From Methanocorpusculum sp. (GTDB taxonomy: Archaea; Halobacteriota; Methanomicrobia; Methanomicrobiales; Methanocorpusculaceae), in assembly GCA_017622255.1 (NCBI GenBank), contig JAGARL010000098.1:1-6035 (forward strand): a DNA stretch of 6,035 bases, in the 5' to 3' direction. Positions 909 through 5,180 of the stretch are shown piece by piece. The position numbers and the translations under genes were made by a program. The notes below the pieces were generated by a model, which worked only from the letters and a program-made list of their open reading frames with translations, did not search any database and was not told where the DNA came from. Positions within the stretch are counted from its first letter, which is position 1; every line of letters starts with the position of its first letter.

Positions 909-1508
909 TTATTTCCGGCAGACGATTGCCGCGTGGTCGATGTGATACGGATTCAGCCAGACTCCCTTCTCAACCGTCAGTCCTGCCGCCTCAATCTCCG
1001 CACAGCTCTCCGCAAAGACCTCTTCGGGAGTCTTTCGGATATCCACCGAGCGGGTTTTCAGCATCAGAATCACCTGCCCGCCCTTTTTCAGGAACGGCAG
1101 ATGGCGAATGATAATCTCCGCCTGATTCGGCTGGGCAACATCCTGATAGAGAATATCTGCCGGCTCTAAGAGTGCCGCATACTCTTTTGGACGGGTTGCA
1201 TCGCCGAAAATCGGCACAATATTCTTCCGGCGGGCAGATACGGCAAGCAAATCCTGCATCGGACGCGGAGCAAACTCAACCGCATACACCGCCTCCACAT
1301 AATCTGCCACATGGGAAACCGTCGTCCCGTTTGCCGCTCCCAGATACAGCACCACATCATCCGCTTTCAGGTCGGTTGACTTATCCAGATACCAGAGAGC
1401 GGAAAGCTTACTGCGGTAAGGGTCCCACACGCGGCATCCCTCAAGCATCCGCTCGCCGTACACACCGCCGGCACCCTCAGAGACCAGGGTTTTTCCGATA
1501 CTCTTCAT
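909..1508 (-). CDS. flpA: Fibrillarin-like rRNA/tRNA 2'-O-methyltransferase
   Basis: Fibrillarin is the S-adenosylmethionine-dependent catalytic subunit of the archaeal C/D-box RNP, which 2'-O-methylates rRNA and tRNA at sites chosen by guide RNAs. The Rossmann-fold motifs are clear in 199 residues. The SAM motif VLYLGAANGTTVSHV is at residues 53-67, AVEFAPRPM at 76-84, FGDATRP at 101-107 and YQDVAQPNQ at 121-129. LMLKTRSVD lies at 148-156 and PYHIDHAAIV at 187-196. K34, D123, K151 and the final His of PYHIDH probably form the K-D-K-H catalytic set known for the family. The protein is shorter than the usual 225-230 residues: only about 16 residues precede VYGER, where homologues carry a longer beta-rich domain. 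The ATG at 1508 overlaps the nop5 stop (ATGA) and has a good GGAGG, so the start is secure. Confidence 0.96.
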   Translation of the reverse strand: MKSIGKTLVSEGAGGVYGERMLEGCRVWDPYRSKLSALWYLDKSTDLKADDVVLYLGAANGTTVSHVADYVEAVYAVEFAPRPMQDLLAVSARRKNIVPIFGDATRPKEYAALLEPADILYQDVAQPNQAEIIIRHLPFLKKGGQVILMLKTRSVDIRKTPEEVFAESCAEIEAAGLTVEKGVWLNPYHIDHAAIVCRK

Positions 1509-2341
1509 TCTCCTGCCTCCATAATTTTGTCAATCTTCGCATTCGCATCCGCAACAAATGCCTCATCAAGTTCTCCGCGGTACGCATCCAGCCTGCAGGC
1601 GATTGCAAGCTTTGCCGACAGCACGCGGGCAAGCTTTCCTCTGACCTCCCGCGGAGCATTGTGCACTCTCCGGTGCTGGAAGATGAGACCATGCTTCGGC
1701 GAGGGAGTTCCTGCTCTGATATGGGAGAACAGTGCAGACTCCGCACCTAAAACCTGAATCGATGAGCCGGGCATTTTTGCCATCAGCGAAAGACTGCCGG
1801 CTCTGGAGACCAGACGGGCTGCGACAAGACCGCCGACTAAGGCACTCATATTGGGGATAACCGCATCCGCGGTTCGGGAAACATCCTTCATGAGATTGGT
1901 ACGAAGGGAAGTGAGAGACAGAATCTCGCGGGCAACGCTTTTCATGGAAGGGTTTTTCGACTTGGCAACGGTCTGGATGAACTTCTTCGATGCGGCTCTG
2001 GTATATTTCCGGGATGAGCCGGGCGTGGTGGACTGATGCCACTCCGTTAAGCGTTCCGTTAACAGATTGATGACATCGTCGAGCTCATCGAGCATACGCA
2101 CCATCTGCAGCATCTCGGTATCCTTCTCAGACAAGGCTTTGGCAATGCCTTCGTTTGCCATGAAAACCGAAACCTCGCGGACGGCTGCAAGATATTCTCC
2201 GCGGCTTTTTACAACACCTGCGGCTTCCAGCTCCTTCCAGTCACAGAGCTTTTTCGGCGCCGGATTGGTATTCTGCCTGACGCGGGCTGCAGCCGCTTCT
2301 GCATCAAGCGAGTATGCACCAGATTCCCCATACCAGTTCAT
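1505..2341 (-). CDS. nop5: Nop5 (Nop56/58 family), C/D-box RNP scaffold
   Basis: Nop5 bridges the guide RNA with its L7Ae protein to fibrillarin in the C/D-box methylation complex. The C-terminal Nop domain spans about residues 162-253. It begins IPNMSALVGGLVAARLV, continues through MPGSSIQVLGAESALF and PSPKHGLIFQHRRVH, and ends RGKLARVLSAKLAIACRLDAY. A mostly helical, charged region (about 45-160) matches the coiled-coil part. The protein has 278 residues, against roughly 370-420 for many archaeal Nop5. The loss is mainly in the N-terminal domain, reduced to about 45 residues, which normally holds fibrillarin. In the usually conserved GAEKALF stretch the Lys is Ser here (residue 202). The C-terminus lacks the long Lys-rich tail of some relatives. 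No Shine-Dalgarno precedes the ATG at 2341. The stop overlaps the flpA start by 4 bp. Confidence 0.95.
   Translation of the reverse strand: MNWYGESGAYSLDAEAAAARVRQNTNPAPKKLCDWKELEAAGVVKSRGEYLAAVREVSVFMANEGIAKALSEKDTEMLQMVRMLDELDDVINLLTERLTEWHQSTTPGSSRKYTRAASKKFIQTVAKSKNPSMKSVAREILSLTSLRTNLMKDVSRTADAVIPNMSALVGGLVAARLVSRAGSLSLMAKMPGSSIQVLGAESALFSHIRAGTPSPKHGLIFQHRRVHNAPREVRGKLARVLSAKLAIACRLDAYRGELDEAFVADANAKIDKIMEAGE
1516..1520 (-). promoter_or_regulatory. Ribosome binding site of flpA
   Basis: GGAGG on the minus strand stands 7 nt before the flpA ATG, inside the last codons of nop5. It fixes the short fibrillarin start and supports translational coupling to nop5 through the ATGA overlap. Confidence 0.75.
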
Positions 2342-2649: not shown

Positions 2650-2658
2650 GTTTATTTA
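2650..2658 (+). repeat. Left 9-bp direct repeat flanking the element (putative target duplication)
   Basis: GTTTATTTA abuts the left terminal inverted repeat and is repeated exactly at 2955-2963, abutting the right one. If the following G is counted with the flanks rather than the element, the repeat is 10 bp. The surroundings are AT-rich, so some chance similarity is possible, but both copies sit exactly at the element borders. Confidence 0.75.
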
Positions 2659-2676
2659 GGCTTTGCTCCTAAATTG
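2659..2676 (+). repeat. Left terminal inverted repeat
   Basis: GGCTTTGCTCCTAAATTG is the exact reverse complement of 2937-2954, 18 of 18 positions. Confidence 0.88.
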
Positions 2677-2710
2677 TGTTATTGTAATGGATTTCTAACA
2701 ACCATTCAAA

Positions 2711-2763
2711 GCAACACGATAGTGTTGCGTGAACAGCGGAGGAGCGATAAGCGACGAAGCGAC
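2711..2763 (+). repeat. Left internal inverted arm with stem-loop
   Basis: The arm opens with the stem GCAACAC-GATA-GTGTTGC (2711-2728) and ends with three AGCGA units (2741-2763). It pairs with 2868-2920 at 44 of 53 positions, and the last 23 nt match at 22 of 23. Confidence 0.85.
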
Positions 2764-2791
2764 ATCACTATAAGGGAAATATATCTTGTAA

Positions 2792-2840
2792 ATTCGCGTA
2801 GATTCGCGTGTAAGTTCAAAAAACGCGAATTCACGCGAAT
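2792..2840. repeat. Central palindrome of the element
   Basis: ATTCGCGT occurs twice (2792-2799 and 2802-2809). Its complement ACGCGAAT occurs twice in mirrored positions (2823-2830 and 2833-2840). The two 18-nt halves pair at 16 of 18 positions around a 13-nt loop. The 10-bp step between the direct copies is one helical turn, which would place both sites on the same face of the DNA. Confidence 0.8.
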
Positions 2841-2867
2841 AACAAAAATACGTTTTGGAGACGCGCT

Positions 2868-2920
2868 GTCGCTTCGTCGCTAATCGCTCCTTCGCTGATT
2901 ACGCAATGCTGTCGCATTGC
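2868..2920 (-). repeat. Right internal inverted arm with stem-loop
   Basis: This is the inverted partner of 2711-2763. Its stem-loop GCAATGC-TGTC-GCATTGC (2903-2920) differs from the left one by paired changes that keep all seven base pairs. Confidence 0.85.
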
Positions 2921-2936
2921 TTAATGAGGTGTTATG

Positions 2937-2954
2937 CAATTTAGGAGCAAAGCC
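2937..2954 (-). repeat. Right terminal inverted repeat
   Basis: CAATTTAGGAGCAAAGCC is the exact reverse complement of the left end and is followed directly by the second copy of GTTTATTTA. Confidence 0.88.
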
Positions 2955-2963
2955 GTTTATTTA
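2955..2963 (+). repeat. Right 9-bp direct repeat flanking the element
   Basis: This is the second exact copy of GTTTATTTA. A further looser copy, TTTATTTAG, occurs at 2967-2975, so the region is locally repetitive. Confidence 0.72.
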
Positions 2964-3095: not shown

Positions 3096-5180
3096 TTATA
3101 ACATCAGAATGACTGGAACGAAAACCAGTGCAATCATAGACATAAGCTTAATCAGAATGTTGATGGACGGACCGGAGGTATCCTTGAACGGATCTCCAAC
3201 AGTGTCACCTACAACTGCTGCCTTGTGAGCCTCAGAGCCCTTTCCACCGTAGTTACCGAGTTCAACAAACTTCTTTGCATTGTCCCATGCTCCGCCTGCG
3301 TTTGCCATAGTGATTGCAAGGAGGAAACCGGAAACAAGGGAACCGACTAAGAGACCGCCAAGTGCGAGCGGGCCTAATACAAGACCGACAAGGATTGGTG
3401 CAACGATTGCAAGGACACCCGGTGCAATCATCTTCTTGATTGCAGAGTTGGTACAGATCTTAATGGTGGACTCGTAGTCCGGATCTGCAGTTCCTTCCAT
3501 TAATCCCTTAATGTTCTTGAACTGGTTGCGGACTTCAACGACAACCTTCTCTGCTGCGGAACCGACTGCGGTCATAGTGAGTGCAGAGAAGAGGAACGGA
3601 AGCATACCGCCGATGAGAATACCGATAAAGACGCTGGTGTTTAAGATATCGATTGCTTCGATACCGACTGCAAGAGAGTATGCACTGAAGAGTGCAAGAC
3701 CAGTGAGTGCTGCAGATCCGATTGCGAATCCCTTACCGATTGCTGCAGTGGTGTTTCCGACTGCGTCAAGGGTGTCAGTGATCTCACGGACCTTCGGGTC
3801 CTGGTGGGACATCTCAGCAATACCGCCTGCATTGTCTGCGACCGGACCGTATGCGTCAACTGCAAGGGAGATACCAAGAGTAGAGAGCATACCGACAGCT
3901 GCGATACCAATACCGTACATACCGGCGAACTGGTATGCGATGAAGATTGCAACAGAGATGATTAAAACCGGCCAGATGGTAGATTCCATTCCCTTTGCGA
4001 AACCGCTGATAATGTCGGTTGCAGCTCCGGTCTGACAGGACTCTGCGATCTTCTTGGTCGGCTTGTAGTCGAAGGAAGTGTAGTACTCAGTGATGAGACC
4101 AATTGCGAATCCGCCGACAAGACCTGCGATGGTTGCGAACCAGATACCCATACCAAGGCATCCTGCACCCATGGTGATCATGGTGAAGTTGCCGTAGAGG
4201 AGGAAGCTGGTGAATGCATAGGTTCCAAGGAGGGAAACAATGATTGCAATGATAGTTCCGGTGTTGAATGCCTTGTGAATTGCAGAGGATTCATTCTTGG
4301 AGGTTCTGACGAACAGAGTTCCAATGATTGCTGCAATGATACCGAATGCAGAGATGAACATCGGCAGGAGGATGAGTGCGAGTGCATCAAGAGTCTCACC
4401 GAAGGTGGTTGCTGCGAATAATGCTGCTGCTCCTCCGAGTGCCATTGCTGCAATGATGGAACCGACGTAGGACTCGAATAAGTCTGCGCCCATTCCTGCG
4501 ACATCACCGACGTTGTCACCGACATTGTCTGCGATAACAGCTGGGTTTCTCGGGTCATCTTCCGGAATGCCTGCCTCGACTTTACCGACGAGGTCAGCAC
4601 CGACATCTGCTGCCTTGGTGAAGATACCGCCGCCGACACGTGCAAAGAGTGCGACAGAGGATGCACCAAAACCAAAGGATGCCATTGCGGAAACGACTGC
4701 ATTGACTGCGGTTAAGTCACCAAATCCGCCGAATGCGACGACGAGGATGATGAAGAGTGCAGAAAGACCGAGTAATCCAAGACCGACGACGGACATACCC
4801 ATGACGGATCCGGATGCGAAGGAAACTTTAACTGCTGCTGCGATACCGCGTTTTGCTGCGTTGGTGGTTCTAACGTTTGCTTTGGTTGCACTGGTCATAC
4901 CAATGTATCCTGCGCACATAGAGAGAGCTGCACCGATAAGGTAGCAGAGTGCGTTGATTGGTGCGATGAGCACTGCGAGGATAATGGCGACGACAATTGC
5001 AAAAGCTGCGATAGCTTTGTACTGGCTCTTCAGGAAGACGCGGGCGCCAAGGTGAATAGCGTCTGCAATCTTGATCATTTTCTGATCTTCCACTTTCTCC
5101 TTCTTTACAACAGAGAAGGAGTAAAGGGCGAAGAGAAGGCCGATTACGGCACAAACTGGAACAAGATATACTAAGTCCAT
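3096..5180 (-). CDS. hppA: Membrane-bound ion-pumping pyrophosphatase, K+-dependent type
   Basis: This integral membrane enzyme hydrolyses cytoplasmic pyrophosphate and pumps H+ or Na+ out. It recovers energy from biosynthetic PPi and pulls those reactions forward. The 694 residues are hydrophobic, with about 16 membrane helices expected, and full length for the family. The PPi/Mg site is intact. It comprises [13 protein letters not shown] (192-204), DNVGDNVGD (218-226), [17 protein letters not shown] (441-457), [14 protein letters not shown] (627-640) and [17 protein letters not shown] (656-672). [10 protein letters not shown] (475-484) has Ala479 and Gly482, where K+-independent enzymes have Lys and Thr, so K+ stimulation is expected. 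The ion-gate region [11 protein letters not shown] has Glu236 at the Thermotoga Na+-pump position. The ATG at 5180 has GGAGG 10 nt upstream and begins the first helix directly. The gene stands alone, with its own promoter and terminator. Confidence 0.97.

Follow-up and report, generated by a model that had tools for sequence, protein, structure and literature searches.

The window, the whole 6,035-nucleotide stretch of Methanocorpusculum DNA that was analysed, carries fibrillarin, nop5 and hppA genes on its minus strand, and a 296-bp element lies downstream of hppA and ∼310 bp upstream of nop5 (Table 1). The terminal arms of the element, each 18 nt long, are 100% complementary in a repeat search of the window, which bears out the exact terminal inverted repeats (TIRs), bordered on both flanks by GTTTATTTA, that the first-pass annotation had described. 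Two further pairs of arms are nested within them, one of 56 nt (2709–2764 with 2867–2922, 84% complementary) and one of 12 nt (2788–2799 with 2823–2834, 92%). With a folding energy of −155 kcal/mol, the plus strand of the element is far more stable than its shuffled versions, which averaged −76 (z −17); none of 200 shuffles folded as well. A full 9/9 match between flanks has a chance of 1.3 × 10−5 for random 9-mer pairs at eight loci and of 7.3 × 10−5 (3 of 41,237) for local pairs drawn from the window's T-rich surroundings; being rare even locally, it is hardly explained by low complexity alone. In a mechanical listing of open reading frames, the only frame of at least 50 residues overlapping the element encodes 82 aa on the plus strand (2635–2883), and the element has no transposase gene of its own. 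A lone palindromic piece of the same core, GAAGCAATGCGATAGCATTGCG, is present at 860–895 of the window, between a bioY-like gene (identified by eye) and the fibrillarin gene, without ends.

Table 1. Features of the element and of the neighbouring genes, with positions in the window
Feature	Position	Strand	Basis
Left target site duplication GTTTATTTA	2650–2658	.	direct repeat of 2955–2963, 9/9
Left 18-bp TIR GGCTTTGCTCCTAAATTG, outer family M1	2659–2676	+	repeat search; first 12 bases as at both ends of the G014 transposon
Remaining M1-type subterminal sequence	2677–2688	+	position between TIR and M2 end; alignment
Remnant of left end of M2 (second family) GGATTTCTAACAACC	2689–2703	+	motif also ends M2 elements and resembles IS copy ends
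Core common with M2 elements, long imperfect inverted repeat	2707–2934	+	identity to M2 elements; core loci classed
Left inner arm with palindrome GCAACACGATAGTGTTGC	2709–2764	+	repeat search
Right inner arm with near-palindrome GCAATGCTGTCGCATTGC	2867–2922	-	repeat search
Right 18-bp TIR CAATTTAGGAGCAAAGCC	2937–2954	-	repeat search
Right target site duplication GTTTATTTA	2955–2963	.	9/9 with left copy
Fibrillarin	909–1508	-	Pfam
Nop (nop5)	1505–2341	-	Pfam
H_PPase (hppA)	3096–5180	-	Pfam

Prokaryotic MITEs are short, non-coding elements with TIRs and a target duplication, which occur in several copies and depend on an autonomous element for mobilisation in trans (PMC10969869, in extract). The element has the structural features and the several copies, and would presumably also be mobilised in trans. 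A 314-bp query matched six of the 25 genomes of the genus, including the window's own (G000; 1.50 Mb in 322 contigs, 79% complete). The best other match lies in the sister genome G013 (isolate RGIG1678, goat cecum) at C17:148449–148744, and is 94% identical over query positions 10–305, exactly end to end. G013 yielded at least 60 match pieces, a figure in which the inverted repeats let one locus count twice and for which 29 of 61 first-look candidates were scored; many match pieces cover the core only, at about query 58–285. Contigs C19, C27, C29 and C58 of G013 (L066–L068 and L080) start 141–149 bases in from the outer edge of an M1 end; the assembly is thus probably broken up by these repeats, and the copy numbers are likely to be too low. 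The 18-base end, with up to one mismatch, was found in five of 232 genomes of the order, all within one of its 40 genera, and a reversed control pattern gave none. With up to two mismatches it was found in eight of the 25 genus genomes, where the matches in G016 and G024 read GGCTTTGCACC and that in G006:C25, inside a long open frame, is likely due to chance. A scan of genome contigs for the end returned 26 stretches, 12 from Methanocorpusculum and 14 from other organisms, the latter being set aside because ∼15 chance matches are expected in 257 billion bases. A 17-base end was also present in 11 stretches of viral contigs.

The nested inverted structure, which had been noted as more elaborate than that of a simple MITE, is, as judged from alignments, a mosaic in which M1 ends surround the core of a second MITE family, M2; this build is new here. 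Many copies of the core have other ends, GAGGATTTCTAACAACC, that define the M2 family, and the core of the window is 71–80% identical to nine M2 elements over the longest matching stretch. Among the loci examined, 30 distinct core loci (E 1e-10, at least 100 bases; a subset of the matches to the 314-bp query) were classed by their ends; two of these loci, L118 and L119, agree in match and identity and could represent a single ancestral insertion. M1 ends on both sides with a left M2 remnant were found at two loci (the window and G013:C17), M1 ends on both sides at one and on one side at five, M2 ends on both sides at six and on one side at nine, and no recognised ends at seven. M1 ends also enclose another core, with both ends present at three of six such loci, none of which carries the first core. 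At G000:C108, an M2 end interrupts a diverged M1 end after 26 bp, and the M2 remnant in the window starts at nearly the same distance inside its M1 end. This broken end is the arrangement expected of an M2 insertion and suggests a nested insertion.

Similar ends also bound insertion sequences. GAGAAT(T/A)TCTAACAACC ends, which resemble those of M2 elements, bound a 1.2–1.3-kb IS5-type unit in G020 and G011 (with part of the G011 stretch read), with flanks of TATAT and AAATA, and the G020 transposase scores 149.2 bits on NCBIfam model NF033581 (cut-off 140), a different model from that discussed below for the M1-type transposons. These units differ from the window element in having a 5-bp rather than a 9-bp duplication, and their right end is not kept in the window. 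Among 13 M2-type end pairs, an exact 5-bp flank match was found at the two IS (TATAT, AAATA) and at one MITE (ACACA), and a 17-bp match at one; the other nine have no match directly at the ends, giving 3–6 bp only with shifted ends, or none.

Ten short TIR pairs, including that of the window, were compared for their flanking 9-mers, which agree at 9/9 in two, 8/9 in two, 7/9 in one and at most 2/9 in five. Six of these pairs and two coding transposons make up the set of eight in which duplication length was tabulated; the four short pairs outside it (L007, 135 bp; L035, 127 bp; L040, 98 bp; and the inner 189-bp pair of L074) have flanks agreeing at 1, 2, 8 and 1 of 9 positions, respectively. 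An exact 9-bp duplication was present in four of the eight, a duplication of 5–8 or 10–13 bp from the ends in none, and one of 4 bp in two. Besides the window, the exact cases are the short copy at G013:C54, flanked by TACCATACC, and the two coding transposons with similar ends. The single 7/9 case is the 94% identical copy at G013:C17. The site of this copy is continuous at 97% identity in G000, 98% in G007 (M. parvum SIG11) and 89% in G014, and reads TGCAAAAAAAGAGAGTTATT in G000 and G014, with one extra A in G007. The empty sequence TGCAAAAAAAGAGAG is thus occupied as CAAAAAAAG, the element, and CAAAAAAG, with one A lost in a run on one side of the duplication. For the G013:C17 copy, the empty site is therefore clean, and G000, from which the window comes, carries one such empty allele. 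A clean empty allele was found at one of five sites queried; a second, at G014:C3, lies in a rearranged region in which relatives have other sequence.

At the site of the window itself, the nop5–hppA gap measures 380 bp in G007, without an insert, versus 674 bp in the window. On the hppA side, the gap can be aligned in G007, G013 and G014, all of which lack the insert there, and is too diverged to show a single GTTTATTTA; in G013 and G014 a gene other than nop5 seems to follow it. The site is unoccupied in G007, with a divergence too great for a base-exact empty site. Transposition, proposed at first from the precise borders, thus stands on the same ends bounding copies at other loci, on the recurring exact 9-bp duplications and on the closest copy's site, which in G000 and at least two related genomes is uninterrupted and holds one target copy. 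The accompanying suggestion of recent activity is only partly borne out: the duplication is perfect, but the nearest other copy found is 94% identical, too low a figure for both to stem from a single very recent burst.

Transposases with a PF01609 domain occur in 10 of the 25 genus genomes, and two are encoded within larger transposons with M1-like ends. The first, a 4512-bp unit on G014:C3 (L108:3739–8250), has the ends GGCTTTGCTCCTTT and an exact 9-bp duplication, CCTCATAGC, and is also present in G013:C39 (L109) with the same flanking bases. Two IS5-type transposases are encoded in it: a DDE_Tnp_1 protein, whose frame spans 427 aa (397 aa when counted from the first ATG), and another of 445 aa with 34% identity to the first. 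The unit also carries genes for a 55-aa DUF2080 "transposase-associated" protein and for two products assigned to no family, a 157-aa frame and a 177-aa protein. The start of one gene of this 4.5-kb unit resembles, by eye, a tail-fibre protein, with no family match. The second transposon, of 4678 bp in G004 (L217:2506–7183), has the ends GGCGTTGCACCTTT, an exact 9-bp duplication, CTTCCGACG, and a 401-aa transposase alongside other frames. This relative has GGCGTTGCACC ends and, by eye, a DUF2080-like protein and a GIY-YIG nuclease-like protein, the last with no Pfam match. A short motif is repeated near the ends of both units, GGAGCA in that of G014 and TGCACCTTT in that of G004. The outer 12 bases of the MITE end are identical to those of both G014 ends, with 16 and 13 of 18 matching overall; the G004 ends match at 12 and 13 of 18, only the first three in a run. 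The search for an insertion sequence with the same ends, which the first-pass annotation had proposed, thus gave 4.5–4.7-kb transposons with similar ends; none of the coding elements found has ends that read exactly GGCTTTGCTCCTAAATT.

At E 1e-15 or better, the 427-aa frame has relatives in five of the 232 genomes of the order, of which four belong to this genus. In G000 a related transposase is present only as a fragment at a contig end, beside a putative differing end, GGCGTTGCCC, seen by eye. Both G007 (79% complete) and G012 (isolate RGIG409, cattle colon; 83%) have M1 ends and gave no relative of the 427-aa transposase at E 1e-15. Viral contigs gave 16 pattern matches and no confirmed relative, plasmids no relative at E 1e-20, and solved structures no sequence match at E 0.1. 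A protein collection returned 2099 proteins at E 0.001, so the wider family is common; among the 120 matches listed the best is 99% and the next 55% identical.

The family of the ends, which had not been recognised at first, can now be narrowed to IS903-like ends of the IS5 family. An E. coli IS5-family element, located through an IS903 end sequence and taken here to be IS903, was used for comparison. It has 18-bp ends, GGCTTTGTTGAATAAATC, and a 9-bp duplication, GGTTAACTA, and its end agrees with the MITE end at 11 of 18 positions, the first seven in a run. The G014 and G004 transposases score best on the same NCBIfam model as the E. coli transposase, NF033579 (cut-off 140 bits), with 140.8 bits for the 427-aa and 103.8 for the 445-aa protein of G014, 132.2 for that of G004, 107.5 for the G000 fragment and 352.2 for the E. 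coli protein. Likeness thus extends to the 9-bp duplication, to 18-bp ends starting GGCTTTG and to the best-scoring model; local identity between the partner transposases and the E. coli protein is only 21–25%. Members of the IS903 group have ends of 15–27 bp, 9-bp duplications and lengths of 1050–1054 bp (eight entries; PMC3281130). The two candidate partner transposons share the 9-bp duplications of that group; unlike its ∼1.05-kb members, they measure 4512 and 4678 bp, carry additional genes and have subterminal motifs that recur. Since size and gene content differ, the outer family would work like IS903 but is not filed in the IS903 group.

Taken together, these data establish a real element of a known kind, whose past transposition is well supported and whose mosaic build is instructive. 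It is very probably a 296-bp non-autonomous MITE with 18-bp IS903-like ends, a 9-bp duplication and a core from a second family, and its likely mobiliser in trans is a transposase of the IS5 family (IS903-type), such as the one from the G014 transposon. We infer that this transposase, encoded elsewhere, would bind GGCTTTGCTCC at both ends and join them to target DNA whose two strands are cut 9 bp apart. Before this, an M2 element may have landed ∼27 bp inside an M1 element and then lost its right end, after which the outer M1 ends would have moved the whole unit.

It might be supposed instead that the mobile unit is the inner M2 element alone, its outer M1 ends being incidental host sequence. 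M2-type ends are indeed found at 17 of the 30 core loci (six on both sides, nine on one and two as left remnants in mosaics), with M1 ends on both sides at only three and on one side at five, and 5-bp duplications mark one M2 element (ACACA) and the candidate partner IS copies (TATAT, AAATA). The window, however, lacks a right M2 end and its 9-bp duplication sits outside the M1 ends, and the M1–M2–M1 unit recurs at a second locus whose empty site is defined by the M1 ends, which makes this supposition improbable. A structured RNA, a terminator or a REP-type regulatory element, kept for its function with no transposon involved, would account for the very stable fold, for core pieces without recognised ends at seven of 30 loci and for the short palindrome at 860–895. 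It is very improbable given that the target duplications and the empty site require insertion, that the G007 nop5–hppA gap has no element, and that no Rfam family reached its gathering score (the best, MIR7996, scored 33.8 bits versus 119). A secondary regulatory effect of the element may exist all the same.

With the M1 ends taken as the mobile ones, the partner might still belong elsewhere. Elements of the IS6 and IS1 families can also have GG... ends and 8–9-bp duplications, and the duplication length and GGC start would by themselves suit such a partner. Yet DDE_Tnp_IS240 (PF13610) was found in none of the 25 genus genomes versus 5 of 14 controls, and DDE_Tnp_IS1 (PF03400) in none of the 25 versus 2 of 14, counts that include 13 genus assemblies outside the ≥90% complete class. 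PF01609 transposases occur in the 10 genomes noted above; in G014 and G004 they are part of transposons whose ends are of this kind. An IS6- or IS1-family partner is accordingly extremely improbable, and an IS903-type transposase remains the preferred one.

The window element is unlike described MITEs in joining the ends of one family to the core of another, and Methanocorpusculum is absent from the archaea named for MITEs in the extract of PMC10969869. Tn3-derived miniature elements, or TIMEs, generate mosaic transposons (PMC4133298, in extract), and the present case resembles them in that miniature elements give rise to mosaic non-autonomous units; it differs in its transposase family and in that the ends of one miniature element here enclose the core of a different one. 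Surveys of archaeal IS exist (e.g. PMC2246112). Titles and abstract openings in the open-licence literature on Methanocorpusculum IS, MITEs and mobile elements included none on such elements, which, for a search of open-licence literature only, is weak evidence of novelty. If the mosaic reading is right, a miniature element can change its transposase by landing in another and travelling under its ends, and a class of strong intergenic hairpins in gut Methanocorpusculum that otherwise invite a regulatory-RNA reading would be explained. A broader view, which we regard as possible but rather doubtful, is that the MITEs of this genus are modular, with one hairpin core under two sets of ends, one set of ends around at least two cores, and a core that escapes its own transposase through borrowed ends; the outer ends would then represent an archaeal branch of cargo-carrying IS903-like transposons, one with two transposases. 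The two larger transposons would be a candidate archaeal genetic tool, and pose the question of why an IS903-like element should have two transposases and cargo.

Several minor observations concern the M2 ends. A tyrosine-recombinase gene adjoins an M2 end outside the G014 transposon (L108:2452–3399), with the same gene in the same place in G013. Mobilisation of the core by this integrase was considered and dropped because similar ends were found around IS5-type insertion sequences; REP/IS200-type hairpin mobility, considered for the palindromes near the core ends, was set aside on the same grounds. The M2-type element at L198:2110–2488 (G013:C22) is flanked by a 17-bp exact direct repeat, AGTTATTCTATAAGAAT, far longer than the 5 bp of its relatives. 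At L103 (G011:C10), the GAGAATTTCTAACAACCC end of the IS5-type IS recurs and is followed by a different transposase, in a 436-aa open frame; two transposases may thus share these ends.
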